From an uncultured Carboxylicivirga sp. (GTDB lineage Bacteria; Bacteroidota; Bacteroidia; Bacteroidales; Marinilabiliaceae), in NCBI RefSeq assembly GCF_963668385.1, contig NZ_OY764327.1:372001-436000 (forward strand): DNA of 64,000 bases. Direction: 5' to 3'. Positions 10,993 through 60,211 of this stretch are shown here, piece after piece; position 1 is the first letter of the stretch, and each line of letters opens with the position of its first letter. Made by a program: the position numbers and the translations under genes. Below the pieces are notes generated by a model that worked only from the letters and a program-made list of their open reading frames with translations, did no database searches and was not told the origin of the DNA.

Positions 10993-11016
10993 AGGTCTTT
11001 GTATTTTTCTCCATTT
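10993..11016 (+). promoter_or_regulatory. Shared motif AGGTCTTTG-N9-CCATTT upstream of the uptake operon (copy 1)
   Basis: AGGTCTTTG at 10993-11001, nine bases, then CCATTT at 11011-11016. The same pair with the same nine-base gap occurs at 40897-40920 and, slightly varied, at 60188-60211. It lies 146 bases before the first FAS1 gene. A TTTTACATT sequence with a -7-like TACATTCG follows 49 bases after the motif start, almost the same distance as in copy 2 (50). This looks like an activator site just upstream of a promoter; the HTCS is the natural candidate protein. Confidence 0.6.
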
Positions 11017-11138
11017 CATTTGGACAACCTTCTTTTACTTTTACATTCGATTATTCTTCTTAACGCTTATTAACTTTTTAAAGAGACATAAGTTGATAGC
11101 TGAAAAGAATAACATAATCGCTAAATAAACCTTTTGTT

Positions 11139-13400
11139 ATGAAAATTAGATCTATTTTGTCTTTATTCATTTCGCTGCTGCTTGTATATAGTTGCGAAAA
11201 TGAAAAAGAAACCTACTATGATAGGCCCGATTGGCTGGAGCCTAACATTCTTAACCAACTCCAGGAAAAAGGAAATTTCAATTCGTTTATTACTTGTATT
11301 GAAAAAGCAGGCTTCTCTAAATCATTAAATGGTGCCGGGTATTACACTGTATTTGCACCCACCGATGAAGCATTTAAAACTTTTATGCAAGAACACAACA
11401 TTTCTTCTGCTGAAAATATCTCTGCAGAAATGGCTCACGATATTGTTTCCTATGCTATCGTTCAAAACAGATACTCGGTTACTGAATTAGATGACTATCA
11501 AACAACAAACGAAGAAATTGAGAGACCGGACATAGCTTATAAACGTAAAACCAACTATTACAAATGGACTTACGACGAAGAAATCGAAGGCTATGGAACC
11601 GTAAAAGTAATTGATGCCAATGGCGTTGGACCTCTAGAATATACAGGTGCAGGAATTGATTACGAAGACAATAACTTTAAAAGCATACCTTATTTTACAA
11701 CTCCTTTTCTTCAGGCTTCAGGCTTATCAGCATACGATTATAACTATTTCTATCCTGATGTAACATTAGGCGATATTAATGTAGCAAATGCACAGGTAAC
11801 AGAAGCTGATTTATACGCCGAAAATGGCATTATTCATATTACAGATAAGGTTATTCTACCTCTTCCTAATATTGAAGAGGCATTAGCTGAAAAAGACAAC
11901 TATAGTACATTCAAAAGTATTCTTGATACCTATCTTAAATCATACCAATTAGCTGATGATTATTTCTTAATTAGAAATGAACAAGCAACAGGAAGTTATG
12001 ATGAGATTTTTGTGAAATTTTATAACGCAGCCTATTTTTCACCAAATGTTGAAAATTATCTACGTTATGGAGGGGGCGAAAGATATGATGACCAAATGGA
12101 AGGTTTTACCATGTTTGCACCCGACAATGCCGCTATAGAAACTTTCTTCAATGAGAAATTCTTAAAATACTATGAGTCTATCGAACAAATGTCGACTGAT
12201 CAAATTGCCGATTTTGTGAATGCTCATCTTTGGAAAAATGCCATTTGGCCAAGTAAGTTCAACACTTATCGTAATATTCATGGAGAGTTACCTCGCTTCG
12301 ATCCTGAAACAAACATTGATGATAAAACAATGTGTAGCAACGGCTTTTTCTACGGCACTAACATTGTACAAGGATCTGATTTATATTACACCGTATTTGG
12401 AGATGTATCATTAAATCCGAAATACTCTAACATGTTGAATGCAATCAACACCTTCCCTACCATTAAAACCTTACTAAAAAACAGTAGTCCTAACATCAAT
12501 ATTCAAATGATTTTATTGGATAACGATCAAATGGATGCTACGGGTATCAAATACAATTATGGTAGAGCAGCATGGGAAATCAGCGAAAACAATCCACTTG
12601 GAACAAACGCTTTAGTTGCACTTGAACGTTTATTAAACCTACATATCTTCTTAAACAAAGATGTAGATTTCTCAGTTCCGGGAATCTATAGAGCTGGATT
12701 ATTTGATAACGGAGAGTACGTTCGTTTAGCTTCTTTCCGTGGAAGATATTTCTTAACAGCTTCAGGTAACAACAGATATAATAGTGGCCCTGAATACCTT
12801 GGTCCTATTGAAGACCAGGCATCAAATGGACAATCTTATACAGTAGCTGAACCAATACTATTTACTACTGCAAACGTAGGTTATCATATCGAAAAAAATC
12901 TGGCCAGCTTTAATAAGTTCTACCAGTATTTATATAAATCGGCAACCAGTCCTAACTCTGAAGGTGAATCAAACCAGGGCTTTATTTACAATACTGTAAC
13001 AAAAGCCATAACCGACGTTAAGGTATCGGTACCAAACACCATTATTATACCAAGCGATGCAGCAATAGATCAGGCTGTTGCAGAAGGTTATCTACCACCA
13101 ATAACAGAGGCCTACTTTACTAAGGATGAACAGCAAATGGTTTACGACTTTGTGAAATACCACATTCTAACCAATAATATTATTGTTCCAAGTAACGACT
13201 TTTCGGCACCTGTAAAAACACTATATAAAACAGTTGACGGAGACACCTATGTTAACGTTATCTGTGTTGATAATACTATGGAAATATATGTACCAGGTTA
13301 TAGTCAGGCGGTTCATATTATAAATACACGTAGTAATGTTTTAGCCAACAGAGCTGTCATACATCAGGCAGATGATTTCTTACGCTATCCTAAAAATTAA
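11139..13400 (+). CDS. Multi-FAS1 (fasciclin) domain lipoprotein of the glycan uptake operon
   Basis: A 753-residue surface or periplasmic lipoprotein; the signal ends LLLVYSC-E at residue 19. FAS1-type folds are recognised by their boxes: YYTVFAPTDEAFKTF (near residue 65) and NGIIHITDKVILP (near 226) bracket the first; FTMFAPDNAAIETFF (near 322) opens the second; a diverged third follows; TIIIPSDAAIDQAV (near 632) and the closing ANRAVIHQADDFL mark the last. FAS1 domains usually mediate adhesion or carbohydrate contact. Its place directly before susC, 6 bases away, suggests it acts with the SusC/SusD pair, perhaps like SusE/SusF surface glycan-binding proteins. It is the first gene of the operon. 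Binding specificity is unknown. Confidence 0.85.
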   Translation: MKIRSILSLFISLLLVYSCENEKETYYDRPDWLEPNILNQLQEKGNFNSFITCIEKAGFSKSLNGAGYYTVFAPTDEAFKTFMQEHNISSAENISAEMAHDIVSYAIVQNRYSVTELDDYQTTNEEIERPDIAYKRKTNYYKWTYDEEIEGYGTVKVIDANGVGPLEYTGAGIDYEDNNFKSIPYFTTPFLQASGLSAYDYNYFYPDVTLGDINVANAQVTEADLYAENGIIHITDKVILPLPNIEEALAEKDNYSTFKSILDTYLKSYQLADDYFLIRNEQATGSYDEIFVKFYNAAYFSPNVENYLRYGGGERYDDQMEGFTMFAPDNAAIETFFNEKFLKYYESIEQMSTDQIADFVNAHLWKNAIWPSKFNTYRNIHGELPRFDPETNIDDKTMCSNGFFYGTNIVQGSDLYYTVFGDVSLNPKYSNMLNAINTFPTIKTLLKNSSPNINIQMILLDNDQMDATGIKYNYGRAAWEISENNPLGTNALVALERLLNLHIFLNKDVDFSVPGIYRAGLFDNGEYVRLASFRGRYFLTASGNNRYNSGPEYLGPIEDQASNGQSYTVAEPILFTTANVGYHIEKNLASFNKFYQYLYKSATSPNSEGESNQGFIYNTVTKAITDVKVSVPNTIIIPSDAAIDQAVAEGYLPPITEAYFTKDEQQMVYDFVKYHILTNNIIVPSNDFSAPVKTLYKTVDGDTYVNVICVDNTMEIYVPGYSQAVHIINTRSNVLANRAVIHQADDFLRYPKN

Positions 13401-13406
13401 TCATTC

Positions 13407-16400
13407 ATGAATAAGATATTCACAATACTAACAATATACGTACTAGCAGTATTAAGCACCCCTGCCTTTTCGCAGGACCGAATAACTGTTAACGGACGTG
13501 TTATAGATGATGTTGCATCAAGTCCCCTGCCTGGCGTAGGAGTAGTTGCACTTGACAAAAGCCAACGTATGCTCCATGGAACAATCACTAACCTTAATGG
13601 CGAGTTTGTAATAGATGTTCCTAAAGGAACTGCCAACTTAAAGTTCTCTTTCATTGGATTTAAAGAACAAATCATACCTTTCTCGGCTGATAAAAAGTTT
13701 TACGAAATAACGCTTAAAGAAGAAGTAGTAGAGATTGAAGGTATTCAGGTTACTGCCATCAAGAAAACTAACACCGGATTTATGAATCTGGATGAAAGAG
13801 ATTTAGCTATTCCGGTTGCAAAAATATCTGCTGAAGAATTTGACGATGTTCAAGCATCCAGTATTGACGAAGCCCTTCAAGGCCGTCTGGCTGGTGTTGA
13901 TATAGCCGCTAACTCAGGAGATCCTGGTGCTGGTATGTCAATCCGAATCAGAGGTGTAAGTTCATTATCTGCAGACAGCCGACCATTAATTGTGGTTGAT
14001 GATGTACCCTACGAAACCAACATCTCAGCCGACTTTGATTTTGCGACTGCCAACGAAGAAGGATATTCACAGATGTTGAATATTTCAGTAAACGACATTA
14101 AAGAAATTACTGTACTAAAAGATGCAGCAGCAACCGCAATGTGGGGTCCTAAAGCATCTAACGGAGTATTGATGGTAACCACCAAGCGTGGAGTTAGAGG
14201 CAGAGCCCCAAGAGTAACTTATACTTATCGTGGAACATACACCGAAGAGCCAGAAACACTTCCTGTACTTAGTGGTGATGAGTACTCTACCTTAATAATG
14301 GAAGCTTACATGAATACCTATAATGTACCTTTAAACACAAGTATACGCAAAGAATTCATGTATTTACCAACTGAACCCTATTACTATTACAACTATGGTC
14401 AGAATACTAACTGGATGGAAGCCATTTCTCAACCAGGGTACATTCATAACCACGACCTTTCAATTGATGGTGGTGGTGACAAAGCAACCTATCGTTTCTC
14501 AGTTAACTATCAGGATCAACAAGGGGTTACTTTAGGTAGCGGATTAGATCGTTTATCTACCCGACTAAATCTTGATTATTTTATTTCGGAGAGATTAAAA
14601 TTACGTGCTGACTTCTCGTTTGCACATGGTAACACTTATGGAAACTATACCGAAAATGGTTTAATCAGAGGTTCAAGTAGTATCAGAAGTACAGCTTACC
14701 GCATGATGCCTAACATGTCGATATACGAATACAATGCATTTGGCGAATTAACAGGTAACTATTTTGCACCAGAAGATAATGCTCAAGGCATTTTTCCAAG
14801 AATGTATAATCCTGTTGCATTAGCGGATTTAGGTGTTCAGGAAACCATTAATGATCGTATCAGTTCAAAATTTAATCTTCAATATAACATTACCGATCAT
14901 TTAAAGTATGCTCTTGACTTATCGTTGGATGTTAACTCCAATAAGCTTAAGCAATTTCTACCTCAGGAGGCAACCGGTGTTTCAATGACAAGTACCTATG
15001 CCAACCGAATGATTGATCGCGATGACGACTCATATAACATTTACACCAATAATAAATTAACCTACTTTAAGTCGTTTAACGAAGATAAGCATAAGCTTAC
15101 TGCAACACTTAACTTTCAAACTACCGAATATATTGGTTACGGATCATACTTAACCAAAACCAATGGTATTTCTTCGGCTCTTCCGGATGCATCGGGTAGC
15201 GGACGCGACAATATCGCCGGATATGGAGGTAGAACAGCTGAAAACAATGGTAGAACAGTAGGTGCCATGGCTATGGCCCATTACAGTCTTTTAGATCGTT
15301 ATATTATTTCAGCCGGTATTCGCCGCGATGGTAACTCGCGCTTCGATAAGAAATACCGTTGGGGTAACTTCCCAAGCTTATCTGCCGCATGGCGTATCTC
15401 AGGCGAACCATTTATGCAAAGTTTAACCTTTTTAGATGATGTTCGCTTACGTTTCAGTTACGGTGAAAACGGTCACCCACCAAGAAACGAATCAATGTTC
15501 TACAGTAACTATTACACTTACGGATTCTCGTACTTAGGAACAACAGGTGTTTACCCTGGTAATATGCAGTTACAAAACCTAAAATGGGAGAGTATTCGTT
15601 CAACCAATGCCGGTATTACAGCCGAAATGTTTGATGGAAGAATCACTAGTGATATCGACTTTTATAAAACCCGTACAGTTGACTTATTATCATACAAGGT
15701 AGCAACACAGTCAACCTCAGGTTATGGATCTCAATCGGTGAAAAACATTGGTACATTAGATAATTATGGTTGGGATTTACAAATCAGAACCTGGCCGGTA
15801 AGAACAAAAAACTGGAAAGTTTCGTTCGACTTTAACATTGCTCGTAACTACAATATAATCCGCGAATTAGCCGACGACTTTTCCGGTGTAATGCAACAAG
15901 CTCCGGGTAATGGAGAGTACATTCGATTTGCACAAATTGATAACCCTGCCGGATCGTTCTATGGATATCGCTACGACGGAGTATATACCAACCCCGATCA
16001 ATTGATGGCACGCGATGCTCATGGCAATGTCATTACCGATCCTAACGGCTTACCTGTTTACATGATTTACGATTATGGAAATACAGGATATGAATTCCAA
16101 TTAGGAGATGCCAGATATCAGGATGTTAATAAGGATGGTAATATCAACGGAGCCGACATTGTTTATCTGGGTAATGCTAACCCTGAATTTACAGGTGGTT
16201 TTGGTCAAAACATTACCTACAAAAACTTCTCGTTTAACTACTATTTCTATTATCGTGTTGGCAACGACATTATCAACAGCACCAAGATGAATGGTGAAAA
16301 AATGTCGAACTACGATAATCAAACCAAAGCAACTCTTAAACGATGGAGAAAAGTTGGTGATATCACAGATATTCCTCGTGCTACTTTTTACGGATACAAT

Positions 16401-16682
16401 TACATGGGGTCCAATCGCTTTGTTGAAGATGGCTCATTCTTACGTTTGAAATACATTACCTTAACGTATCGAATTCCTAAAACACTTTGCCAGCGATTAG
16501 GCATGCAAACGGCTCGCCTTTCAACCACTGTAAATAACCTGCTCACATTTACCAACTATAGTGGTCAGGATCCTGAAATTAGTATCAAATCAGAAGACGG
16601 AACCATGTATACCGTAGGTTATGACAACTCTCAAACTCCGGTTACCCGAAACGTCACATTTACTTTAAGTGTTCAATTTTAA
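13407..16682 (+). CDS. SusC-family TonB-dependent outer membrane transporter (pair 1)
   Basis: Imports oligosaccharides through the outer membrane using TonB energy. It has 1091 residues with a signal peptide ending PAFS-Q. A carboxypeptidase D-like domain at about 25-110 (VNGRVIDDVASSPLPGVGV) is followed by the plug, with LQGRLAGVDIAANSG, IRIRGVSSLSADSRPLIVVD and VLKDAAATAMWGPKASNGVL; the last replaces the usual AIYGSRAANG. The remainder is the 22-strand beta-barrel, ending in the aromatic C-terminus FTLSVQF needed for outer membrane insertion. It has 12 bases to susD. Its length, order and neighbours fit a SusC paired with the following SusD. Substrate is inferred to be RG-I fragments. Confidence 0.95.
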   Translation: MNKIFTILTIYVLAVLSTPAFSQDRITVNGRVIDDVASSPLPGVGVVALDKSQRMLHGTITNLNGEFVIDVPKGTANLKFSFIGFKEQIIPFSADKKFYEITLKEEVVEIEGIQVTAIKKTNTGFMNLDERDLAIPVAKISAEEFDDVQASSIDEALQGRLAGVDIAANSGDPGAGMSIRIRGVSSLSADSRPLIVVDDVPYETNISADFDFATANEEGYSQMLNISVNDIKEITVLKDAAATAMWGPKASNGVLMVTTKRGVRGRAPRVTYTYRGTYTEEPETLPVLSGDEYSTLIMEAYMNTYNVPLNTSIRKEFMYLPTEPYYYYNYGQNTNWMEAISQPGYIHNHDLSIDGGGDKATYRFSVNYQDQQGVTLGSGLDRLSTRLNLDYFISERLKLRADFSFAHGNTYGNYTENGLIRGSSSIRSTAYRMMPNMSIYEYNAFGELTGNYFAPEDNAQGIFPRMYNPVALADLGVQETINDRISSKFNLQYNITDHLKYALDLSLDVNSNKLKQFLPQEATGVSMTSTYANRMIDRDDDSYNIYTNNKLTYFKSFNEDKHKLTATLNFQTTEYIGYGSYLTKTNGISSALPDASGSGRDNIAGYGGRTAENNGRTVGAMAMAHYSLLDRYIISAGIRRDGNSRFDKKYRWGNFPSLSAAWRISGEPFMQSLTFLDDVRLRFSYGENGHPPRNESMFYSNYYTYGFSYLGTTGVYPGNMQLQNLKWESIRSTNAGITAEMFDGRITSDIDFYKTRTVDLLSYKVATQSTSGYGSQSVKNIGTLDNYGWDLQIRTWPVRTKNWKVSFDFNIARNYNIIRELADDFSGVMQQAPGNGEYIRFAQIDNPAGSFYGYRYDGVYTNPDQLMARDAHGNVITDPNGLPVYMIYDYGNTGYEFQLGDARYQDVNKDGNINGADIVYLGNANPEFTGGFGQNITYKNFSFNYYFYYRVGNDIINSTKMNGEKMSNYDNQTKATLKRWRKVGDITDIPRATFYGYNYMGSNRFVEDGSFLRLKYITLTYRIPKTLCQRLGMQTARLSTTVNNLLTFTNYSGQDPEISIKSEDGTMYTVGYDNSQTPVTRNVTFTLSVQF

Positions 16683-16694
16683 AAGTAAGCAGGC

Positions 16695-18209
16695 ATGTTA
16701 AAGAATTTCTATAATAAAACACAAAAAATCAAAGTACTTACAATGGCACTGCTTCTATCACTTATGAGTGTGTCTTGTAACGACTGGTTACACCTCGAAC
16801 CTCAAAATGCAATTACCGTTAAAGACTATTGGCAGTCGAAAGAAGAGGTACACAGTGCCGCCATGGGTATATACTCATCCATGCTTACTGATCATCCCTG
16901 GCTTTGGCTTCGTTGGGGTGAAGTAAGAGCCGAAATGGTAACTTCTACCAATTACTGGGATTACACATACGTTAATAACGGTGATATACTTCCTACTTTA
17001 GCACTTGTTGAATGGGCACCTCTATATCGTACCATTAACTTTTGTAATAACTTTATCGAAAAAGCACCATCAGTATTGGATCTTGACGAATCGTTTACTC
17101 CTGATATGCTTAATGCTTATTTATCCGAAGCATATGCCATCAGAGCGTTAATGTACTTTTATTTGGTTCGCTTTTATGGCGATGTACCACTTATTACAGA
17201 AGCTACTCTTTCTGATGATCAGGAATTAAGAGTACCTAAAAGTTCGATGGGTGAAGTACTTGCTCAAATCGAACAGGATTTGATTAAAGCGGAGCAAACA
17301 GCAGTTGAAAATTACGACGATATCGAAAATGATAAAGGAAGAATTACAAAAGCTGCCATTAACACTATGCAAGCCGATTTATACTTATGGACCAATGAGT
17401 ACGACAAAAGTATTACAGCAGCCGATAAAGTAATTAATTCAGGAAAATTCGGTTTGGTTCCTTTTGGAGAAGAGTGGTTAACTACTCTGTTTCATCAAAC
17501 CAACTCTATTGAAGGAATTTTTGAATTACAATACAGCGATCAGTACCTGAATCCTTTTAATAGTGCATTAAACCTTAACCCCGTGTTTACGGCTAACGCT
17601 GATATCATTGAAAATTTCTTTCCAATAGATATTTATTTAGATCCGGATAGTGCCGATATACGTGGCGACAGAGGTTCGTACCGTTCATCGCGCCAGTACA
17701 AACTTTGGAAATACATTGGTGTGAACCGAAGTTTAGCCAAAACAGAAGAACAATACACCTCAAATTTTATGGTGTATCGTTATGCCGATGTTCTTTTATT
17801 AAAAGCTGAAGCACTTGCAATGAGAGCTAATGAAGGTGACTTAAACGAATCGTTACGCCTGATTAATGTAATCAGAAACAGAGCTAAGGCTGCCAAAGAA
17901 ACTCAGGAAATTTCAGACAATGAAACTCCGACAACCCATGGATTGATAACATACATTGTGAATGAAAGAGCCCGGGAATTTGCTTTTGAAGGAAAACGCT
18001 GGCCGGACATCCTCAGAAACGCACGACGTAATAACTACGAACGAATGGATTTAATCCGATCAATGGTATTGTTGGCTTCCCCTAGTAATCGTACTCAAAC
18101 TATTTTAAGTAAATACCAGGACACCTTAAGTCATTATTTCCCAATACCACAGGTTGATATTGATGCTGGTTATCCGATACTGGAACAAAATACTTTTTAC
18201 AGAAATTAA
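16695..18209 (+). CDS. SusD/RagB-family glycan-binding lipoprotein (pair 1)
   Basis: Surface lipoprotein that forms a lid on the SusC barrel and binds glycans. It has 504 residues; the signal peptide ends MSVSC-N. Typical SusD features are the start LHLEPQNAITVKDYWQSKEE, the helical TPR-like region with YLSEAYAIRALMYFYLVRFYGDVPL, and the C-terminal block YADVLLLKAEALAMRANE followed by FEGKRWPDILR. It lies 12 bases after susC of the first pair, so the two are co-translated partners. A FAS1 lipoprotein gene follows. The ligand is not visible in the sequence. Confidence 0.95.
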   Translation: MLKNFYNKTQKIKVLTMALLLSLMSVSCNDWLHLEPQNAITVKDYWQSKEEVHSAAMGIYSSMLTDHPWLWLRWGEVRAEMVTSTNYWDYTYVNNGDILPTLALVEWAPLYRTINFCNNFIEKAPSVLDLDESFTPDMLNAYLSEAYAIRALMYFYLVRFYGDVPLITEATLSDDQELRVPKSSMGEVLAQIEQDLIKAEQTAVENYDDIENDKGRITKAAINTMQADLYLWTNEYDKSITAADKVINSGKFGLVPFGEEWLTTLFHQTNSIEGIFELQYSDQYLNPFNSALNLNPVFTANADIIENFFPIDIYLDPDSADIRGDRGSYRSSRQYKLWKYIGVNRSLAKTEEQYTSNFMVYRYADVLLLKAEALAMRANEGDLNESLRLINVIRNRAKAAKETQEISDNETPTTHGLITYIVNERAREFAFEGKRWPDILRNARRNNYERMDLIRSMVLLASPSNRTQTILSKYQDTLSHYFPIPQVDIDAGYPILEQNTFYRN

Positions 18210-18337
18210 TTTAAGTTGATAAACCAAAGCAGATGAAAAGATCAAATAACATCAATCAGCTATCAGAAAAACAGATTAATGGCTTAAGCTCTTCATCTGC
18301 AGGTTTGGGTAAAAATGTTTTTGAAAATCTAAGAACT

Positions 18338-20083
18338 ATGAAAATATCATCTTTTATACAAAAAAGTACCTTCCTCTTACTAATCGTTGCCGGCATTTTG
18401 GCCAGCTGCCAACCAGAGGAATATACCGAGAGAACCAGTTACGAACAGTTAATTGGCGAATACCTTGAATCAAATCCGGATCAATTCTCGACTTATATTC
18501 AAGTACTTGAAAAAAGTAATTCCATGGCATTTTTAAAAGCCTATGGCGCATATACCGTATTTGCTCCCAATAACGATGCTTTTAAACGCTACTTCGAAGA
18601 AAAAGGCAAAACACTGGATCAATTCTCAGAAGAAGAATTAAAAGATTTGGTTCGCTTCCATACCATTAGAGATACCATTGCTTCGACCCTGTTTATTGAT
18701 GGTAGAATGCAAACGCAAACCATGTATGGACAATACCTGACAACCAAAGCTGAAAATTCGGACGACGATTTGAAATACCTGATCAATAAAAGTGCCGAAA
18801 TCGATATTAAAGATAAGCGTTTATTAAATGGTGTATTTTATTCGGTTAATGATGTTTTGGACCCCGAAACAAGAACCTTAAAAGAGATGCTGGCTGGCAT
18901 GCCTGATTATAGTATTTTTTACGAAGGTTTAGTACAAACAACACTTGCCGATACTCTTAACTTAAGAGTAAGTCGTGAATCAGAACAGGTACGTAATTTC
19001 ACCGTAATAGCTATTCCTAACGAGGCTTACGAAAAAGAAGGAATTCTTAGTTACGATGATCTTGCCAAGGAATATTCTGACACCGGAGATCCAACCCTGG
19101 CTACCGACAGCTTATACCTATACATGGCTTACCATATTTTAGACAACCAGCTAAAATATGTTTCCGACCTGCAAGAACAAGCTGCTCACTTAACTTATGC
19201 TCCGCTTGAAGTAATTACCATCAAAAACGCCAATGGAAATGTATTGATAAACGAAGATGTATTTAATGGTGTTGTTGAACCCGGTTACCCCATTAACCGT
19301 CAGCTTTCGGATGTTACAACTAATAATGGAGTATTACACTTTGTTGATAGTGACTATGGTATTAAAGTACGTCAACCCTTCCCTGTTTACTGGGAAGTAA
19401 CCGACCAATTGGAGATCAGAAAAATGCCGGGAGTATATGGTAAACAAAGTGTTGCATTATCACCTGGTCAGTTAGAAGACATTACTTGGCCTGAAGGTCA
19501 TGACATTGATTACACCGTTGGTCTATCTAACTCTCCTTATCCATATGTAATGGGCGATTACCTAAATATATACTTAAGACCCGAGATAGTTCCTTGGATT
19601 GAATTTACTACTCCTTTATTAGTTAAAGGTAAATACAAACTATGGACATGTACTCGTAATGTATACCCTTCTTCGGGTTATCGTAATCCTATTTTCTTTG
19701 TGTATTTCGATGATGAAGTACTTCCGGTTATCATTGATACTAACACCACATTAAGTCGTGATGTTAGTGAAGAAGAATATGAATTACAAGGCTTTAAATG
19801 GTATTCATTCTGGCCCGAACGCGATTCAACAGCTTACCGCTATGTTGATGGATCAGGTTCAGGACGTTTTACCGGTCAGTTAGCCGGAACCATCAATGTT
19901 GAAACAACCGGTCGCCACAAAGTAAAATTTGTTGGTATTACAGCATTTGCGGGTCAACACTTATGGTTAGATCAAATCCACTTTATACCAAGTGATATGG
20001 ATCAGATTTGGCCAAGAAGTAATGTAGAAGATAACTCTCGCATTTACAAAGAAGGGTTACCTGCCATGACCGTACCGGAATAA
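18338..20083 (+). CDS. FAS1 domain lipoprotein with C-terminal beta-sandwich domain
   Basis: A surface lipoprotein of 581 residues from the ATG at 18338, which puts the lipobox (GILASC-Q) 24 residues from the start. The longer in-frame start at 18233 would leave an untypical 59-residue leader. FAS1 domain one spans about 45-165 (AYTVFAPNNDAFKRYF, LLNGVFYSVNDVLDP). A second FAS1-like domain runs to about 330 (NNGVLHFVDSDYG). Residues about 345-575 form an unrelated beta-rich domain with many aromatics (MPGVYGKQ, TSRGRH-like turns, HLWLDQIHFIPSD) resembling a carbohydrate-binding jelly roll. Its position between the two SusC/SusD pairs suggests glycan binding at the cell surface. The role is inference. 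Confidence 0.82.
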   Translation: MKISSFIQKSTFLLLIVAGILASCQPEEYTERTSYEQLIGEYLESNPDQFSTYIQVLEKSNSMAFLKAYGAYTVFAPNNDAFKRYFEEKGKTLDQFSEEELKDLVRFHTIRDTIASTLFIDGRMQTQTMYGQYLTTKAENSDDDLKYLINKSAEIDIKDKRLLNGVFYSVNDVLDPETRTLKEMLAGMPDYSIFYEGLVQTTLADTLNLRVSRESEQVRNFTVIAIPNEAYEKEGILSYDDLAKEYSDTGDPTLATDSLYLYMAYHILDNQLKYVSDLQEQAAHLTYAPLEVITIKNANGNVLINEDVFNGVVEPGYPINRQLSDVTTNNGVLHFVDSDYGIKVRQPFPVYWEVTDQLEIRKMPGVYGKQSVALSPGQLEDITWPEGHDIDYTVGLSNSPYPYVMGDYLNIYLRPEIVPWIEFTTPLLVKGKYKLWTCTRNVYPSSGYRNPIFFVYFDDEVLPVIIDTNTTLSRDVSEEEYELQGFKWYSFWPERDSTAYRYVDGSGSGRFTGQLAGTINVETTGRHKVKFVGITAFAGQHLWLDQIHFIPSDMDQIWPRSNVEDNSRIYKEGLPAMTVPE

Positions 20084-20093
20084 CCTGCTAACA

Positions 20094-21653
20094 ATGGATA
20101 GAAAAAATATAAATATGAAAAAATATATCAATCACATATCAGCTGTATTATTGGTGCTGTTCTTCGTTGGATGCCAGGATGCATGGGAAGACCATGCTGA
20201 GCTGGCTGACACGACCCCTTCGGAGAGCATAATGCAGCTGCTCGAAGCCAAATCGGAGTACAGTAACTTTGTTTCGGCAATTAAAACAACTGGCTTAGAC
20301 AGTGTACTTAATCAACCCATTATGCTTACCGTTTGGGCTCCGGCTAACGATGTTTTTACCAACCTTCCTGAAGACAAAGAAGAACTAAAAACACTAGTTG
20401 GAAACCACATTGCTTATGGTTCGGTGCAATTGGCACAATTAGCAGGCACAAAACGCCTGTCGATGGTAAACGGAAAATACATCACCGTAGATGGAACAAA
20501 AAAAACAGTAGATCAGATAACTGTAAATACGACTGACATTCCTGCCAAAGATGGTTTCTTACAATTAATTGATAATAAACTTAGCCCCCGAATGAACATT
20601 TGGGAATACATCGAAAGTTATTCGGGAACCAATAAGCAAATCGATTACCTGAATTCATTATCCGGGGATGTTTTTGATCCTGAAATTGCCAAGATTATTG
20701 GCTATAATAATAACGGTGAAGCTATTTATGATACGCTATCCGGGATGGTTTGGAGAAACTCCTTTTTAGATAATGTAGCTGATTTACGAGTAGAAGATTC
20801 GACTTATACCTTATTGATAGTTGACGATGCGGCCTTTGACCAGGAATTTGAACGCTATACTCCTTTCTTTTTGGTATCATCTGCCCCTACAGAAGAGGCT
20901 GCAGCCTTGAATAAGGAAATGTGTTTATCAAAAATAACAAAAGACTACTGTTTTAGTACAAGTTATTCTTCATCAGAAATACCTTCCCAATTGCTATCTG
21001 TTGATTCAGTCATGGTACCTATTGATAAAGATCTTATTGTAGAATCATATTATGCAAGTAACGGATGGATACATCATATTTCTACCTGTCCTGTTCCATT
21101 AGAAAACAAGATACTCCCCATTTTTATTGAGGCTGAATCGATTAACCGATATATCAGTAACTACACTATTAATGGAAACAGTATTATGGGATCGCCCACC
21201 GGTAATTTAAGGGTACGCCCCGAAGCTTCTGGTGGTTATGATTACGTTTTAGATAACTCTGCATCGAATGTACAAGCTTCGGGCTTAATACTTCACGCCG
21301 GAATGGTTGCATCAACAACCTATAAATTTTATTGGAAGGCAGTGAACGATTTTAACGGTTCGTATCGTTTACCTAATCGATCTGAAGACTTCGTTTTAAG
21401 ACAAAAACTTGGTACTACAACATTGAGAAGTGAAAACAATGGTCGTTTTGATTTCAACCCAATGGTAGGAGCTTCACCTGAATATACCGATGTAACAGCA
21501 ACTTCTTATGCCGAAGCGGTAGAACAAGAAGTAGGCAGCATAACCTACACTTCAATGCGAGATATTTATTTATGGCTTCAAAACGAAGGCGACAAAGCTG
21601 TTACTGCCGATTACATAAAACTTGTACCTGTTTTCGAACAAACTGAAAATTAA
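20094..21653 (+). CDS. FAS1 domain lipoprotein with CBM-like C-terminal domain
   Basis: A 519-residue lipoprotein; the signal peptide ends LFFVGC-Q. An alternative ATG at 20115 removes seven residues and gives an equally good signal. One clear FAS1 domain covers about 45-165 (PIMLTVWAPANDVFTNL, PAKDGFLQLIDNKL) and a diverged second one about 168-345 (TYTLLIVDDAAFDQEF, NGWIHHISTCPVPL). Residues about 345-515 start with IFIEAESINRY, like the AE strand of CBM6/35 modules, and end with YLWLQNEGDKAVTADYIKLV, the usual last strand of such jelly rolls. It sits 10 bases after the previous FAS1 gene and 6 bases before the second susC. Probably a surface glycan-binding accessory. Confidence 0.82.
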   Translation: MDRKNINMKKYINHISAVLLVLFFVGCQDAWEDHAELADTTPSESIMQLLEAKSEYSNFVSAIKTTGLDSVLNQPIMLTVWAPANDVFTNLPEDKEELKTLVGNHIAYGSVQLAQLAGTKRLSMVNGKYITVDGTKKTVDQITVNTTDIPAKDGFLQLIDNKLSPRMNIWEYIESYSGTNKQIDYLNSLSGDVFDPEIAKIIGYNNNGEAIYDTLSGMVWRNSFLDNVADLRVEDSTYTLLIVDDAAFDQEFERYTPFFLVSSAPTEEAAALNKEMCLSKITKDYCFSTSYSSSEIPSQLLSVDSVMVPIDKDLIVESYYASNGWIHHISTCPVPLENKILPIFIEAESINRYISNYTINGNSIMGSPTGNLRVRPEASGGYDYVLDNSASNVQASGLILHAGMVASTTYKFYWKAVNDFNGSYRLPNRSEDFVLRQKLGTTTLRSENNGRFDFNPMVGASPEYTDVTATSYAEAVEQEVGSITYTSMRDIYLWLQNEGDKAVTADYIKLVPVFEQTEN

Positions 21654-21659
21654 TGCATC

Positions 21660-24842: not shown

Positions 24843-24863
24843 TCAACGGAAACAATCATTATT

Positions 24864-40896: not shown

Positions 40897-40920
40897 AGGT
40901 CTTTGCACTATTTTCCATTT
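40897..40920 (+). promoter_or_regulatory. Shared motif AGGTCTTTG-N9-CCATTT upstream of the trimodular enzyme operon (copy 2)
   Basis: AGGTCTTTG at 40897-40905, nine bases, CCATTT at 40915-40920, identical in both halves and in spacing to copy 1 at 10993. It lies 99 bases before the ATG at 40996. TTTTACATT follows, with TACATTAA 50 bases from the motif start, as in copy 1 (49). Likely operator of the 40996-51941 operon. Confidence 0.6.
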
Positions 40921-40995
40921 GCCACCCTATGTGTGAAGGGTATTTTTACATTAACGGAAATTGAGCTGATTTAGCTCTGAATTTGAAGAATTACT

Positions 40996-44106: not shown

Positions 44107-44136
44107 TCCACTCATAAAAGCCAAAACATAAGCATC

Positions 44137-47644: not shown

Positions 47645-47663
47645 AATTAAAATCATTGCGAAC

Positions 47664-49109: not shown

Positions 49110-49115
49110 TATAGA

Positions 49116-51941
49116 ATGAACCGCAACTTATATTTAATCTGCATACTAATGCTGTTTCCATTTATAACCAATGGGCAGGAAACGGAACAGCTTTATTTGT
49201 CAGGAACAGGCTTAGACAATACTGTCACCTGGGATTTTTATTGTTCCGATGGTCATAACAGTGGTAAATGGGGCAAAATAGAAGTGCCATCGCAATGGGA
49301 ATTGCAAGGCTATGGAGAGTATTCTTATGGCCGATGGTACAAAAAAAACGAAGAAGTTTCGAAAGAAACAGGTACCTATCGCTACTCGTTTAAAGTACCC
49401 AAATCGTGGACTGACAAACAGGTAAACATTATTTTTGAAGGTTCTATGACCGACACTGAGGTTTTTATCAACGGGCATAAAGCCGGCGCTACACATCAGG
49501 GTGGTTTTTATCGTTTCTCATACAACATCAGCGATAAGTTATTAATAGGAAAGAAAAACCGCTTGGAAGTAATTGTTCATAAACACTCGGAGAATGCCAG
49601 CATCAACCGTGCAGAACGAATGGCCGACTGGTGGTTGTTCGGAGGCATCTATCGTCCGGTGTACCTAGAAGCCAAACCTCAACAAGCCATTACTCATGTG
49701 GCTGTTGATGCACAGGCCAATGGTACATTAAACGCCGAGGTTGATTTATCTGCCCCAATAAGCGGAGCTAAAATAGTTGCTTCCATCGAGCCTCTTACAG
49801 GCCAAGGCAGCTTTAAAGAAGTTACACTTCCGTTAAATGATAATGAGCTAAAACAAACCATTAGTACTAAATGGGACAATGTTATTAGCTGGAATCCTGA
49901 GTATCCTCAGTTATATGTATTAAACCTTAAGCTGGTTGATCAAGCAAATAAAACACTGCATTCCTGGAATTCGCGCATTGGTTTCCGCACGGTTGAGTTC
50001 CGCCCTAAAGACGGATTCTATGTGAACGATACCAAAATCATCATGAAAGGTATTAACCGTCACTCGTTTCATCCTGATGGAGGAAGAACCACCAGCCGCG
50101 AAATTAGCAAGCAGGATGTTTTGTTAATGAAAGAAATGAACATCAATGCCGTTCGTTTTCACTATCCTCCCGATCAGCACTTTTTAGAAATGTGCGATTC
50201 TTTGGGCTTATTTGTAATGGACGAATTGGCCGGATGGCAAAACTGCTACGACTCTAAAGTTGGGCCTAAATTACAGAAAGAAATGCTGATGCGCGATGTG
50301 AATCATCCCAGCATAGTTGTATGGAGTAACGGTAACGAAGGAGGATGGAACTACGATTTAGACGCTCACTTTGCCGATTACGATCCTCAAAAAAGACATG
50401 TGATACATCCATGGGCCGATTTTAACGATGTGGATGCTCACCACTACCCTACTTACCTTACAGGCGTAGCCCGCTTTACCAATGGCTACAAAGTATTTTT
50501 ACCTACTGAATTTATGCATGGTATGTACGATCAGGGTCATGGTGCCGGACTGGAAGATTTTTGGTTAAACTGGACTTCGCATCCATTGTTTGCCGGAGCT
50601 TTTATGTGGGCATTTTGCGATAATTCGGTGAAACGTTCTGATAGAGGAGGCAAACTCGATTCGGATGATTTCCGCGCTCCCGATGGTATTGTGGGGCCTT
50701 ATCGCGAAAAAGAAGGCAGCGTATTTACCGTACGCGAGGTATGGGCTCCAATACAGTTTAAAAAGTTGTTTATCACTCCTTCATTCAAAGGAAACTTTAC
50801 CATTTCGAACACTTACTTGTTTACCAACTTAAACGACTGTAGTGCCCAGTACCGCCTTTACTCCATCGATTCACCGTTAAAAGGTGCTAATAAAAAAGTA
50901 ATTAGCGAAGGAACTGTTAACCTACCCGCTCTTAATCCGGGCGAAACAGGAATGGCTCATATGGAGCTTCCTGATCATTTCTTCGATGCCGATGTGTTAG
51001 AGATAGAGGCTTTCGATCCTCATGGTAAAGCAATTTGCAACTGGTCGTGGCCTGTTAAATATGCCAGCGAATACTTTAAAACACAGGAATCAGAGATACA
51101 AAACACTCAGAAAGTGAAAGTAGTGGAACAAAACAATGCTACCACTCTATCGGCCAATGGCGTATCGGTTCGTTTTAATCAAACCAACGGCCAGCTCGAA
51201 GAAGTGAGCAATGCCAATGGTGTTATTCCGTTTAACAATGGTCCGGTGGCAGTTGGTATGAAAATACAGTTTAAAGAGTGCTACGCTCGTCAGGATGAAA
51301 AAACAGCTCAATTTGTGGCCAAGTATCTGGGTGCTATTGATTCAATTGTATGGACCATGGATGCCGACGGACTTTTAAAGATGGATGCGGTGATGCTGAA
51401 TCGTGCCCGCGGTGGCCAAGGCTTCGACGATGCTTTTACCGATAATGAGATTTACAACCTTGGATTAACATTCTCGTACCCCGAAGAGTTGGCCAAGGGA
51501 ATGGAATGGTTTGGACGTGGGCCTTACCGCGTGTGGAAAAACCGCATCAAAGGTACCAACTACAACCTGTGGCAAAAAGATTACAATAATACCATCACCG
51601 GCGAAAGCGATTATGGTTTAACTTATCCTGAGTTTAAAGGATATCATGCCAACCTGTATTGGGCTACCATTGAATCGGACAAAGCACCTTTTACAGTATA
51701 TGCCGAAACCGATGGCGTATTTATGAGGGTATTTACCCCTGAAGAACCTCACGGACGTCAGGATGGGAAAGCTACTATGCCTGCTTTCCCCGAAGGAGAT
51801 ATATCGTTTTTATACGACATCCCGGCCATCAGGTCGTTTAAACCTACTTCGCAACAAGGGCCACACAGTCAGCCGGGTAATATCCGCATTAAAGTAGGCG
51901 ACGAAGGCATACGTATGGTATTGAATTTTGATTTTAGATAG
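49116..51941 (+). CDS. GH2 family glycoside hydrolase (beta-galactosidase type)
   Basis: A 941-residue periplasmic enzyme; signal peptide ends ITNG-Q. Domain order is typical: sugar-binding sandwich (about 25-190, with VFINGHKAGATHQGGFYRFS), Ig-like (about 195-290), TIM barrel (about 295-570) and C-terminal beta domains (the last like Bgal_small_N). Acid/base Glu is in VWSNGNEGGWNY near residue 407 and the nucleophile Glu in FLPTEFMHG near 464. RHSFHPDGGRTTS and AVRFHYPPD are further GH2 hallmarks. Bacteroidota RG-I loci often carry such enzymes for beta-galactose side chains, but beta-glucuronidase or other specificity cannot be excluded. Last gene of the operon. Confidence 0.9.
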   Translation: MNRNLYLICILMLFPFITNGQETEQLYLSGTGLDNTVTWDFYCSDGHNSGKWGKIEVPSQWELQGYGEYSYGRWYKKNEEVSKETGTYRYSFKVPKSWTDKQVNIIFEGSMTDTEVFINGHKAGATHQGGFYRFSYNISDKLLIGKKNRLEVIVHKHSENASINRAERMADWWLFGGIYRPVYLEAKPQQAITHVAVDAQANGTLNAEVDLSAPISGAKIVASIEPLTGQGSFKEVTLPLNDNELKQTISTKWDNVISWNPEYPQLYVLNLKLVDQANKTLHSWNSRIGFRTVEFRPKDGFYVNDTKIIMKGINRHSFHPDGGRTTSREISKQDVLLMKEMNINAVRFHYPPDQHFLEMCDSLGLFVMDELAGWQNCYDSKVGPKLQKEMLMRDVNHPSIVVWSNGNEGGWNYDLDAHFADYDPQKRHVIHPWADFNDVDAHHYPTYLTGVARFTNGYKVFLPTEFMHGMYDQGHGAGLEDFWLNWTSHPLFAGAFMWAFCDNSVKRSDRGGKLDSDDFRAPDGIVGPYREKEGSVFTVREVWAPIQFKKLFITPSFKGNFTISNTYLFTNLNDCSAQYRLYSIDSPLKGANKKVISEGTVNLPALNPGETGMAHMELPDHFFDADVLEIEAFDPHGKAICNWSWPVKYASEYFKTQESEIQNTQKVKVVEQNNATTLSANGVSVRFNQTNGQLEEVSNANGVIPFNNGPVAVGMKIQFKECYARQDEKTAQFVAKYLGAIDSIVWTMDADGLLKMDAVMLNRARGGQGFDDAFTDNEIYNLGLTFSYPEELAKGMEWFGRGPYRVWKNRIKGTNYNLWQKDYNNTITGESDYGLTYPEFKGYHANLYWATIESDKAPFTVYAETDGVFMRVFTPEEPHGRQDGKATMPAFPEGDISFLYDIPAIRSFKPTSQQGPHSQPGNIRIKVGDEGIRMVLNFDFR

Positions 51942-52341: not shown

Positions 52342-52365
52342 CATTATAAATCCGCAAAAAACAAC

Positions 52366-55749: not shown

Positions 55750-58700
55750 TTATTCAGATTTTGATTGGCTTTCTACTAATTTCATTTGATCGGTTCCAAA
55801 CTTAGATGGTGCACAACCAAACTGCGCCTTAAAGCATTTACTAAAGTAAAAAGGATCTTCGATACCGACCTGCCAGGACACTTCGGATACGGTATGCTTT
55901 TTCTCTACCAATAACTCAGCAGCTCTCTTCATACGCTTAATTTTAATCAGCTCGTTGGGCGAATAACCCGTTAATCCTTTCACTTTTTTATAAAAGATAG
56001 TACGTGATAATCCGGCCAATTCGGTAAATTCGGTAACTGTAAAGCTGGCATCGGCCAAATGTTTATCAACAATGTCGTTAATAAGAGTATAAAACTCCTG
56101 GTCTTTCTTCTCTTCACTAAGTGCACCTATTTTTACATCAATATCAACCGAGAAACGTTTCTTCAGCTTCTCGCGCTGATCAATCAATCCATATATACGC
56201 GATAACAAGAACTTAAGACTAAATGGCTTCATAATATAAGCATCGGCACCACATTCACTCCCCTGCAACTGGATAGTATCAGACGACATAGCTGTTAATA
56301 GAATGATTGGGATATGACTGGTTTCGAAATTATCTTTCAACCGTCGGGTTACTTCTAAACCATCCATCTCAGGCATTTTTACATCACAAATAATTAAAGC
56401 TGGATTAGTGTTAATGGCTTTCTCCAAACCGTCTTTACCATCAACGGCTAGTTCAATATTAAAGTGATGCTTTAATTCTTCGCTCAGGTATTCTCTTATA
56501 TCGTAATTATCATCAATAATAAGCACCTTTGAATTCGATGGGCTTACCGGGCGTTTGATATCCGCTTCTTCGTTTTGCTTAATCAGCTTATCTTCATCCT
56601 CTGCCAATGGTTGCGAATTCACATAACGAACATCGTGATACAGCTCTTCATTGGTTGGCAATTCAACTACAAACACCGAACCACCTTGAGGATTGGCCTC
56701 GTAATGGACTATACCTTTATGTGCTTCCACAAACTCCTTCACCAACTCTAAACCAACACCTGTTCCTTCAGGCGAAAAATTAACCTGCTTAAATCGACTA
56801 AACAACATGTCCTGCTTGTCTTTTGGCACACCAATACCAGTATCGGTTACCGAAATAACACAGCGATTTTCTTCTTCGTGTTTTTCCAGCTTAAATACAA
56901 TACTACCATTTGCCGGCGTAAACTTAAAGGCATTGGATAAGAGGTTAAAAAGAATTTTCTCCAACTTATTTCTATCCACATAAAAGTTCCACTTCTCTTG
57001 TAATCCTTCAAATTGGTAATCGATACTTTTTTGAAAAGCAATCTCTTTAAACTCGTAGTACACATTTAATGCATACTCGTTAATATCAGTCTTTTCAAGA
57101 TTAAGCGTTAATATATTATTCTGCAATTTACGGAATTCCAACAGCTGATCGATCAACCTCGACATTTGTTGCGTATTACGATTTAATAAGCCTAAATGAC
57201 GAGTAACATCATCGGGCAGTTCTTCTTTTTTATCGTTGATACTTTCTAAAGCTCCTTTTATTAATGTTAAAGGAGTTCGGAACTCGTGCGACACATTAGT
57301 AAAGAATCGCAACTTATAATCAGTCACTTGCTTCTCCATTTTTACCGCAGTGTTCAACTTATTAATGCGAAACAGGAATTTAATGAATATCAACCCCAGC
57401 AAAGCAATAAGCAGCACATAAATGATAACGGCATATATCGATCTCCAGAATGTTGGCTGAACTGTAACCTGGCAGGTAGTAACTTCATCGTTCCACTCAC
57501 CATCGGCATTAGCACCTTTAACCATAAAGGTATATGTACCTGCAGGCATATTTTTATAGGTTGCCCAGTTATTATTATTGGGTTTACTCCAAAACTGATC
57601 AAACCCATCCATCTTATACGAATATTTATTTCTTTTGGGATCGGTAAGATCAAGACATGAGAAAAAGAACGAGAACGTGCGTTGATCGTAACTTAGCACC
57701 ACTTTATCAACTTTATTTATAGATTGTTTAAGTGGTGAGTTTTGATGTTCGCTCTCCATTCGTTGATCGAAAACATACAGGTCTGTTAATATGGTCTGAG
57801 GCACTTCCTTATTATGAGCATCCAAATCTCCCGGATCAAAAACCAACAAACCGTCTAAAGTTCCCCACAATAACTCTCCATTATCATTTTGTAAGCTGGC
57901 ATTTTCGCCATAAAAATTACCATAGGTACTATTAGAAAAATAATAAGTAACAAATGTTTTTGTGACAGGATCAAATGGTGCCAAACCATTTTCGGTTCCG
58001 GCCCATATGGTACCATCTTTACTCTCTTGAATAGATGTTACAATATCAGATGGTAAACCATCTTTTTTGGTATACTTAACAAACGCTCCCTGACGATCGA
58101 GACTATTTTTATCAAAAAGGTTTAAACCACCACCAGCAGTTCCTACCCACAATTGGCCTTTACTGTCTTCAAATATTGTTTTGATATCATTACAATTAAG
58201 CCCTACAGGATGCCCCGAGTTATAGGTATAAATAGTAAAGGCTTTAGGATTCACTAAAATCTCTTCGTATTTAAAGCTGATCAAACCATCGTAACTACCT
58301 GCCCATATCTTTCCTTCTTTATCTTGTAGCAAGCATCTTACATAACTAACATTTTCACGATTATTGAAAAAATGTTTAAACATCATTCCTTTCGGTGTTT
58401 CTTCCACCATATCAATTCCACCACCAAAAGAGGCTATCCAAATTCTGTCATCCTTATCTTTTATGATATCGAAAATAGAGTTATGGCTAATGGTTTGATT
58501 AATTTCATTATTGGCTTTAAAGTGATAGTATTGTTGAAAAGTATTTTTATCAATTACATAAATTCCGTTTCCTTTTGTTCCCACCCATATACGTCCTTTG
58601 GCATCTTCACAAACCGCATAAGGGTTAATGTTCTTTTTTACTACCTTCTTATTCACTAAATCCTTATCGTACAGATAAAGGCTACCATTTTTAGTACCAA

Positions 58701-60087
58701 TCCATATATTAGCATCGGTATCTTTATAAACAACTCTTACATTATTATTGGTACCAATAGCTCCTTCTTCTTCAGGCTTAACATACTCAGCATGATACTT
58801 TTCTTTTACCACCTTTATAAGCCCTGCATATTCGCTACCAATCCATAAATTTCCATGTTTATCATTTATAATAGATAAAAGATAATCGGAAGCAGGACTA
58901 TTCTCTTTTTGATCATATGAATAGTTGGTAAGGAAATCATTATCCGAATCATATCGATACAATCCATTTCCGTATGTTGTTATCCAATAAATCCCTTCTT
59001 CATCAATCAAAACATTGTAACGACCATCATCTATCACATTAGCTACATCGGGCTCAATAAGTGTAAGTTCTTTTACCCTATCTTTTATAGCATCATAAAA
59101 GAATACTTTGCCAGAATAATCATAAATCCAAATCGCATTTCTACTATCTTCAATTATTTGCGGAGCACCTTTAAAATGATGTTTTTGGTTTAGTGCATTT
59201 TTAGTGAAGGTACCTGTTTCAATATCAATTTTATATAACTCCTCGTTTAACGAGGATGCTATTAACGAATTACTATTAAGCTTTTTTAAATCGAGGAATG
59301 TATCTTCAAATTTACTTTTAAAGGAAGAGATAAAAGCCCTTTTATTTTGCTGATACCGTTGAATTAATCCCTTATCAGTTAAAAAATAAATGATACCTGC
59401 GTGCTCTACAGCTTCCACAAAACGACCGTTACTATCACCATCGAAGAAATGTTGAATTTTAAATTCTTTATTTATTGTATTCAAACCTTTTTCAGTACCA
59501 ATCCAAGTGTTTTCTTCCGAGTCTTCGAATAAAAACTGAACGACTTCATCATCTAATTTATTATCACTTAACGACGAATGATATAATACTTCAGGCAAAT
59601 TACTTGCTCCCTTTCCTATTTTTACGCAGCCATTGCCTCCCCATAACCATATAAAGCCATCCTTAGTTTGAGTATAGTGTGTATATGGTAATGAAATGGA
59701 CTTGCCATCAAAACTAAAATTAATAAATGTCTCAGTATTGGAGTTATAACAGCTAAAAGTATTTGCATAAGTAAGTATCCAAATAAAACCATTATCGTCT
59801 TCAAAGATACTTTTTACGCGCTGGTCTGGAATATTTAACGGACTTTCGGGTTCGGGCTTATAAGTAATAAATCTATTTCCATCGTAACGTACCAAACCAT
59901 CGAGAGTACCGACCCACAAAAATCCTTTATTATCAAATAGAAGACTTCGAACCGTATTCTGAGACAATCCATCTTTAGTACTGATCTGACTAAACGTTAT
60001 TGTTTCCTGAGCCCGAACACTTTTGGTAAGTAAAAAAATGAGTAACAATACCCCTAAATTGTAAACACTCTTGTAGATTTTATTCAT
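55750..60087 (-). CDS. Hybrid two-component system regulator (HTCS)
   Basis: One-protein sensor kinase and transcription factor that likely switches on this locus. The ATG at 60087 gives a clean signal peptide (LLTKSVRA-Q) and 1445 residues; an ATG at 60120 would add 11. The periplasmic part has two propellers of Reg_prop repeats (GLWVGTLDGLVRYDG-type motifs, many W-x-G-T) and a Y_Y_Y domain (YSYKMDGFDQFW), then a membrane helix near residues 880-905. The kinase has the H box FTNVSHEFRTPLTLIK, N box LLSNAFKFTP and G boxes DTGIGVP and GTGVGLELVKEF. The receiver has LIIDDNYDIREYL and the phosphorylated Asp in ICDVKMPEMDG. The C-terminal AraC domain ends YFSKCFKAQFGCAPSKF. HTCS proteins sense oligosaccharides in the periplasm; RG-I fragments are the inferred ligand. 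Confidence 0.95.
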   Translation of the reverse strand: MNKIYKSVYNLGVLLLIFLLTKSVRAQETITFSQISTKDGLSQNTVRSLLFDNKGFLWVGTLDGLVRYDGNRFITYKPEPESPLNIPDQRVKSIFEDDNGFIWILTYANTFSCYNSNTETFINFSFDGKSISLPYTHYTQTKDGFIWLWGGNGCVKIGKGASNLPEVLYHSSLSDNKLDDEVVQFLFEDSEENTWIGTEKGLNTINKEFKIQHFFDGDSNGRFVEAVEHAGIIYFLTDKGLIQRYQQNKRAFISSFKSKFEDTFLDLKKLNSNSLIASSLNEELYKIDIETGTFTKNALNQKHHFKGAPQIIEDSRNAIWIYDYSGKVFFYDAIKDRVKELTLIEPDVANVIDDGRYNVLIDEEGIYWITTYGNGLYRYDSDNDFLTNYSYDQKENSPASDYLLSIINDKHGNLWIGSEYAGLIKVVKEKYHAEYVKPEEEGAIGTNNNVRVVYKDTDANIWIGTKNGSLYLYDKDLVNKKVVKKNINPYAVCEDAKGRIWVGTKGNGIYVIDKNTFQQYYHFKANNEINQTISHNSIFDIIKDKDDRIWIASFGGGIDMVEETPKGMMFKHFFNNRENVSYVRCLLQDKEGKIWAGSYDGLISFKYEEILVNPKAFTIYTYNSGHPVGLNCNDIKTIFEDSKGQLWVGTAGGGLNLFDKNSLDRQGAFVKYTKKDGLPSDIVTSIQESKDGTIWAGTENGLAPFDPVTKTFVTYYFSNSTYGNFYGENASLQNDNGELLWGTLDGLLVFDPGDLDAHNKEVPQTILTDLYVFDQRMESEHQNSPLKQSINKVDKVVLSYDQRTFSFFFSCLDLTDPKRNKYSYKMDGFDQFWSKPNNNNWATYKNMPAGTYTFMVKGANADGEWNDEVTTCQVTVQPTFWRSIYAVIIYVLLIALLGLIFIKFLFRINKLNTAVKMEKQVTDYKLRFFTNVSHEFRTPLTLIKGALESINDKKEELPDDVTRHLGLLNRNTQQMSRLIDQLLEFRKLQNNILTLNLEKTDINEYALNVYYEFKEIAFQKSIDYQFEGLQEKWNFYVDRNKLEKILFNLLSNAFKFTPANGSIVFKLEKHEEENRCVISVTDTGIGVPKDKQDMLFSRFKQVNFSPEGTGVGLELVKEFVEAHKGIVHYEANPQGGSVFVVELPTNEELYHDVRYVNSQPLAEDEDKLIKQNEEADIKRPVSPSNSKVLIIDDNYDIREYLSEELKHHFNIELAVDGKDGLEKAINTNPALIICDVKMPEMDGLEVTRRLKDNFETSHIPIILLTAMSSDTIQLQGSECGADAYIMKPFSLKFLLSRIYGLIDQREKLKKRFSVDIDVKIGALSEEKKDQEFYTLINDIVDKHLADASFTVTEFTELAGLSRTIFYKKVKGLTGYSPNELIKIKRMKRAAELLVEKKHTVSEVSWQVGIEDPFYFSKCFKAQFGCAPSKFGTDQMKLVESQSKSE

Positions 60088-60187
60088 ATGTATATGTGCT
60101 TCTTCAATCGAAAAATACAATCAAATTCCAACAGCTAATAAAATTACATAATATATTAAACCTGCATAAGGATATGTCATTTTTTTC

Positions 60188-60211
60188 AGTTCTTTGTATG
60201 ATTCTCCATAC
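60188..60211 (+). promoter_or_regulatory. Variant of the shared motif, AGTTCTTTG-N9-CCATAC, upstream of the GH43-like gene (copy 3)
   Basis: AGTTCTTTG at 60188-60196, nine bases, CCAT at 60206-60209, 78 bases before the ATG at 60266. It matches copies 1 and 2 in 8 of 9 bases of the left half, in the gap and in the CCAT core; the variable gap also resembles copy 1 (TAT...TTCT). It lies in the 178-base region shared with the divergent HTCS gene, so it could also affect regulator expression. Confidence 0.5.

Follow-up and report, generated by a model that had tools for sequence, protein, structure and literature searches.

A locus of Carboxylicivirga carries the short spaced pattern AGKTCTTTG-N9-CCAT before three of its transcription units and, close by, a gene for an HTCS regulator, which raises the question of whether the pattern marks the site from which that regulator controls its neighbours. 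The stretch analysed, hereafter the window, comprises 64,000 nucleotides (bases 372001-436000 of a single-contig 6.27-Mb genome, G000). Nine window proteins, submitted to Pfam as residues without the first Met, fall into the FAS1, SusC, SusD, rhamnogalacturonan lyase family 11, GH106, GH88/105-type, GH43 and HTCS families, and the window is therefore read as a rhamnogalacturonan-I (RG-I) utilisation locus. The HTCS combines a propeller-type sensor, HisKA, HATPase and receiver domains and an AraC-type DNA-binding domain in one protein. On the comparisons described below, the motif very probably forms the core of an operator through which the HTCS activates its RG-I cluster. We infer that the HTCS binds the sites and that the cluster is induced, rhamnogalacturonan being the presumed inducer because of the gene content of the cluster.

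The motif in the window and in the genome

The first-pass annotation had placed the motif 146, 99 and 78 bases before the respective ATG, counted from the motif start, and these distances are correct: with zero mismatches the pattern occurs three times in the window, always on the plus strand, at the core starts of operators 1 to 3 (Table 1). The three upstream regions are identical in 16 of 22 columns, compared with a maximum of 13 in 200 dinucleotide shuffles.

Table 1. Predicted regulatory sites and genes of the locus (window coordinates)
Feature	Position	Strand	Remarks
Predicted operator 1	10983..11019	+	Before FAS1/SusC/SusD operon; core 10993-11014; exact match, conserved in two congeners, direct repeat
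Operator 1, distal half-site	10987-10996	+	TATTACAGGT
Operator 1, proximal half-site	11007-11016	+	TTCTCCATTT
-7 element TACTTTTA	11036..11043	+	43 bases after motif start; 3' end overlapped by TTTTACATT (from 11039)
Predicted operator 2	40887..40923	+	Core 40897-40918; before operon headed by trimodular GH88/105-GDSL enzyme
-7 element TATTTTTA	40941..40948	+	44 bases from motif start
Predicted operator 3	60178..60214	+	Core 60188-60209; divergent HTCS/GH43 intergenic region
-7-like element TACCTTGC	60232..60239	+	4/6 match; 44 bases from motif start
HTCS	55750..60087	-	Pfam: Reg_prop, Y_Y_Y, HisKA, HATPase_c, Response_reg, HTH_18/HTH_AraC; ATG at 60087-60085
Putative operon FAS1-SusC-SusD-FAS1-FAS1-SusC-SusD	11139..26600	+	Target 1; first three genes named by Pfam, others by reading translations
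Putative operon trimodular enzyme, GDSL-type esterase, GH106, GH28-like, GH2-like	40996..51941	+	Target 2; genes at 40996 and 44864 named by Pfam, others by reading translations
GH43-like gene	60266..61225	+	Target 3; Pfam
Putative operon GH105, esterase, PL11-like, GH28-like	4105..10216	-	Probable target 4; gene at 9068 by Pfam (Glyco_hydro_88), others by reading translations
Diverged candidate operator, GH105 operon	10270..10305	-	TTTTACAGGG (10280-10271) in proximal half-site position; distal half poor
-7-like element TATCTTCG, GH105 operon	10244..10251	-	
Weak candidate operator, sulfatase gene	39133..39169	+	Core from 39143; -7-like element from 39187
AraC-family regulator	1070..1963	+	Cluster edge; named by reading; HTH part matches other AraC-type proteins

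Four exact matches to the short pattern exist in the 6.27-Mb genome, three of them the window sites. The fourth (G000:C1:4480840) was rejected, since it lies on the other strand inside an ORF, is unlike the three sites outside the motif core and scores 2.4 bits with the full matrix, as against 39-43 bits for the three. Small phage-like genes, named by reading only, surround this match (L121 8652-12236). Exact matches outside the cluster in G061 (C43) and G016 (C53), among the matches listed, were likewise taken as chance. When one mismatch is allowed, the genome yields 33 matches and the reversed control 24; at up to two mismatches the window yields six, with a shuffle mean of 3.6. The short form is weak by itself, and makes a poor tool for scanning. 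A genome-wide scan, which the earlier annotation had proposed for the short pattern, recovers only the three window sites at up to two mismatches when run with the extended pattern MAGKTCTTTGYAYNWTTNTCCATT, so that at this stringency the motif is confined to the RG-I locus; at three mismatches there are three additional genome matches, and two in the reversed control.

Two further features of the window may be mentioned here. A 105-bp tandem repeat, also readable as 21-bp units, occupies 52110-52344, where convergent genes leave a gap of 1.3 kb; pieces like it recur elsewhere in the genome, and the corresponding gap in G001 measures about 0.3 kb. The PL11 gene at 29832 is preceded by two hairpins, a strong terminator-like one with T's behind it and then a short one (29588-29620, 29704-29721), both conserved in three species, with a fold z-score of -3.3 for the region. 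No Rfam match at the gathering score was found in the window.

Sites in orthologous clusters

The comparison of orthologous promoters that had also been proposed finds the motif conserved in each of the eight further genomes examined that hold an HTCS orthologue, in some of them weakly. The cluster is largely syntenic in G001 (Carboxylicivirga linearis, of the same genus as the window genome, with an HTCS 76% identical) and in G006 (Marinilabiliaceae bacterium A049), where GH115 was not found in the stretch compared. In these two congeners the element forms a conserved island in all three promoters, with one core base changed at the first site of G001.

The nine sites from the three promoters in these three species (window genome, G001 and G006) were used to build a matrix, which was then run over eight held-out stretches (426,984 bases), taken from six genomes that possess an HTCS orthologue (G061, G062, G063, G080, G027 and G016). 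Twelve matches scored at least 20 bits, and 12 of the 12 lie ahead of a cluster gene, at 76-164 bases from its ATG, whereas 20 shuffles of each held-out stretch gave one match of at least 20 bits in total; these counts are not independent, since the sites share ancestry. Lower scores were also seen. The best in the main G062 stretch is 15.3 bits, and the GH105 sites reach 16.2 bits in G061 and 15.3 in G080, values that shuffles also attain. The divergent HTCS/GH43 promoter carries a site in eight of the nine genomes with an HTCS orthologue. As described for HTCS operators in Bacteroides, the sites lie before operons of the HTCS's own cluster and are conserved in orthologous clusters. Duplicate records were counted once throughout: G060, G064 and G065 have the same contigs and matches as G001, G006 and G027, and the contigs of G081 and G083 are those of the records behind G062 and G063.

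The occurrence of the motif can also be set against that of the regulator. Defined as a near full-length match of at least 42% identity, an HTCS orthologue is present in 8 of 71 family genomes: G000, G001, G006, G080, G081 (its contig is that of the P. marinum record G062), G083 (that of the P. sediminum record G063), G027 and G016. The next-best matches, at 38% (G083) and 37% (G067), were counted as paralogues. The consensus at up to three mismatches is found in six of the 71 genomes, all of them among the eight holders (Fisher p 2e-7), and in none of the 63 genomes without an orthologue, the reversed control also giving 0; the two holders missed by the consensus pattern, G080 and G016, were found by the matrix only. 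The association is strong yet partly trivial: motif and HTCS both travel with the cluster, so that the association alone does not name the binder. The C-terminal DNA-binding part of the HTCS is 68-90% identical in seven orthologues and 33-46% identical in ten aligned family paralogues, the corresponding values being 40% for G016 and 21% for a Bacteroides nordii protein. Although the G016 HTCS shows 42% identity, with a DNA-binding part in the paralogue range, one site (21.4 bits) persists in that genome.

Repeat structure, promoter geometry and further candidates

A set of 25 aligned sites was assembled from the nine training sites, the 12 held-out matches of at least 20 bits, three held-out sites of 15.3-16.2 bits (G061 20806-, G062 38417+ and G080 82408+) and one of 11.4 bits (G062 38377-), which was included for its place, pointing away from GH105 within the same intergenic region. 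The set contains neither the GH105 nor the sulfatase candidate of the window, and a 15.2-bit match outside the cluster (G080 21191) was left out. Four of the 25 sites thus lie at 11-16 bits, a range also reached by shuffles, and the three of 15.3-16.2 bits score below the largest shuffle score of their own stretch (19.5, 15.9 and 19.9, respectively). As these four weak sites were picked partly by place, the 25-site statistics rest in part on position; the count of 12 in 12 does not.

The consensus of the 25 sites is aTTTTaCAGGt.TTTGTAt.ATTtTCCATTt. The motif as first described stands, but is incomplete, being part of a larger element of ∼33 bp that consists of two imperfect direct repeats 20 bp apart, a distal TTTTACAGGT-like and a proximal TTTTCCATTT-like half-site, with a conserved TTTGTAT between them. 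Column-profile correlation singles out offsets of 20 (permutation p 0.001) and 10 (p 0.005), all other offsets from 4 to 25 giving p > 0.2. Similarly, the distal and proximal ten-mers are alike in 5.5 of 10 letters at offset 20 and in at most 4.3 at the other offsets from 8 to 33. The offset agrees with the layout of Bacteroides HTCS operators, in which two sites lie about 21 bp apart.

The element also holds a nearly fixed position relative to the promoter. The published consensus for the primary sigma factor of Bacteroidota is TAnnTTTG at -7 and TTTG near -33 (PMC7366714, available text). When the best match to TAnnTTTG was sought at offsets 40-48 from the motif start, 24 of the 25 sites had one of at least 4/6 at 43-45 bases, and 19 had one of at least 5/6 at +43 to +45. 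The mean match peaks at offsets 43 (4.0/6) and 44 (3.3/6) and is no higher than 2.8 elsewhere between 22 and 66. The -7 element of Bacteroidota promoters is thus recognisable, whereas the -33 element is not: TTTG stands 18-22 bp before the -7 element in just one of the 25 sites, and in the 24 sites where the -33 box is missing its usual position is occupied by the proximal half-site. The TTTTACATT box that had been noted 49 and 50 bases after copies 1 and 2 is indeed present, but at 46 and 47 bases start-to-start; it begins three bases into the -7 element and is the 3' end of that element, not a second regulatory box. Taken as a general rule, TTYCAT-N21-22-TAnnTTTG shows no genome-wide enrichment (23 matches, control 24), and this geometry is therefore not established as a general rule.

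Whilst the proposal of an HTCS operator gains support from these comparisons, the regulon of three units proposed with it is likely too small. The GH105 operon is preceded by a diverged candidate whose block with TTTTACAGGG is conserved in three species, with ATTTACAGGG in G006, shifted by no base. The distance from it to TAnnTTCG is 29, 30 and 30 bases in the three species, the same spacing as that of the proximal half-site elsewhere. Here the proximal position carries distal-half letters, a hint that both halves are versions of one unit. The sulfatase candidate is weaker: it scores 12.7 bits here and 13.3 in G001, with a -7 match of 5/6 at 44 in both, and was not found in G006. A conserved promoter block in a paralogous cluster reaches 11.9 bits in G001, so that a score of 12.7-13.3 bits, as for the sulfatase gene, is not specific alone. 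No site of at least 6 bits was found in the gaps preceding the PL11 genes at 29832 and 34511.

The paralogous cluster, near 3.83 Mb and with an HTCS 34% identical, was scanned over 40 kb in each of the three species with the 25-site matrix, and no site was accepted there. Of the best scores, 17.6 falls within the HTCS ORF and 14.5 within an ORF as well, and the match of 14.4, located 24 bases ahead of an ORF, is not conserved. Upstream of the ORF starting at G000:C1:3850623 (L172), this cluster has a conserved block of its own with TTCCAT (TTACAT in this genome), in which, counted by hand, about 25 bp separate CCAT from a downstream -7-like element.

The regulator, its proposed mode of action and its setting

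What, then, recognises the element? AraC-type domains are also able to bind direct repeats, and the AraC-family regulator at the edge of the cluster could in principle occupy the sites whilst the HTCS acts elsewhere. Counterparts of this protein, 71-91% identical, exist in six other genomes, and in G001, G006, G061 and G080 they lie in or near the cluster. In G062 and G063, however, the counterpart is on a contig other than the cluster stretches examined, and in G027 and G016, where the motif is present, only HTH parts match (E 4e-12 or weaker); these two assemblies are 76% and 92% complete, so that the absence is not proof. The HTCS adjoins a site in eight of the nine genomes, and we consider the AraC-family protein an unlikely binder.

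The nearly fixed distance to the -7 element might alternatively mean that the whole element is simply a core promoter read by some particular sigma factor and that no dedicated regulator is involved. Such a promoter would be expected neither to be absent, as the extended motif is at up to two mismatches, from the rest of the 6.27-Mb genome nor to be lacking, as the consensus is at up to three, from every family genome without the HTCS orthologue; in addition, the primary-sigma consensus, as given in the available text of PMC7366714, has no such upstream part. This explanation is therefore very improbable. Chance resemblance among AT-rich upstream sequences is less credible still, and can for practical purposes be set aside: the frequency of the short pattern at one mismatch and its exact off-cluster matches in G061 and G016 do lend it something, but the conservation in congeners, the placement of all 12 strong held-out matches before cluster genes and the excess of common columns over the shuffle maximum speak against it.

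With the HTCS as the preferred regulator, the following sequence of events may be envisaged. A periplasmic RG-I oligosaccharide would bind the propeller sensor, the kinase would phosphorylate the receiver domain, and two HTCS protomers would use their AraC-type domains to contact the two half-sites from the same face of the DNA. As the proximal half-site covers the place of the absent -33 box, RNA polymerase would need the bound HTCS in order to start. The SusC/SusD operon, the trimodular-enzyme operon and the GH43 gene would thereby be switched on, probably together with the GH105 operon and perhaps with the sulfatase gene and the HTCS gene itself.

A more far-reaching version, which we put forward only tentatively and consider rather less probable than not, is that the operator replaces the -33 element: the proximal half-site would be locked to the -7 box, the bound HTCS would take over the -33 contact and, the switch being part of the promoter itself, entire transport operons could be exchanged downstream of it. 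In the outgroup clusters of G061, G063, G027 and G080, the SusC next to GH105 shares only about 25-27% identity with the window SusC proteins, and a search at E 1e-30 gave no FAS1 match. The diverged SusC still has a strong site before it in G061, G063 and G027. The transporter genes seem to have changed behind an operator that was kept.

The layout agrees with the accepted HTCS scheme of periplasmic oligosaccharide sensing, a one-protein phosphorelay and AraC-type domains on a direct repeat. Predicted Bacteroides HTCS motifs are direct repeats with a mean period of ∼21 bp; in the available text of the same source, HTCS_Rgu-1 (BT4111/BT4124) of B. thetaiotaomicron has two 12-bp sites with a 9-bp spacer (period 21) and HTCS_Rgu-2 (BT4178/BT4182) two 14-bp sites with a 6-bp spacer (period 20) (PMC3878776). 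Binding of BT4124 to a bt4114 promoter fragment is seen in gel shifts (PMC11253607, available text), as is that of BT0366 to the BT0365 operon promoter and the BT0366/BT0367 intergenic region (PMC5061871, available text). Like the two Rgu systems, the present one joins an AraC-type HTCS to rhamnogalacturonan genes through direct-repeat operators, predicted there and here; it differs in that the window locus comes from another Bacteroidota family, and the likeness is one of layout. HTCS_Ara-1 (BT0366) of B. thetaiotaomicron has the same layout as window sites 1 and 3, but serves an arabinan regulon and shares the BT0365 promoter with a second repressor, AraR. No title on a rhamnogalacturonan regulator of Carboxylicivirga was found among the titles listed from a collection of open-access papers, and PMC12125979 was set aside as a source on HTCS operators, as its available text concerns a Vibrio xylose regulator.

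The motif is thus new, whilst the type of switch is already known from the direct-repeat HTCS operators of Bacteroides in the related gut bacteria. Less expected are the near-fixed spacing to the -7 element, the absent -33 box and the fact that the operator persists ahead of such diverged SusC genes. For an HTCS from outside the gut genus Bacteroides, the analysis provides a predicted operator, a half-site register and a promoter geometry, together with a regulon prediction that is directly testable. How such a regulator could activate transcription is suggested by the nearly constant distance to the -7 element together with the lack of a -33 box.
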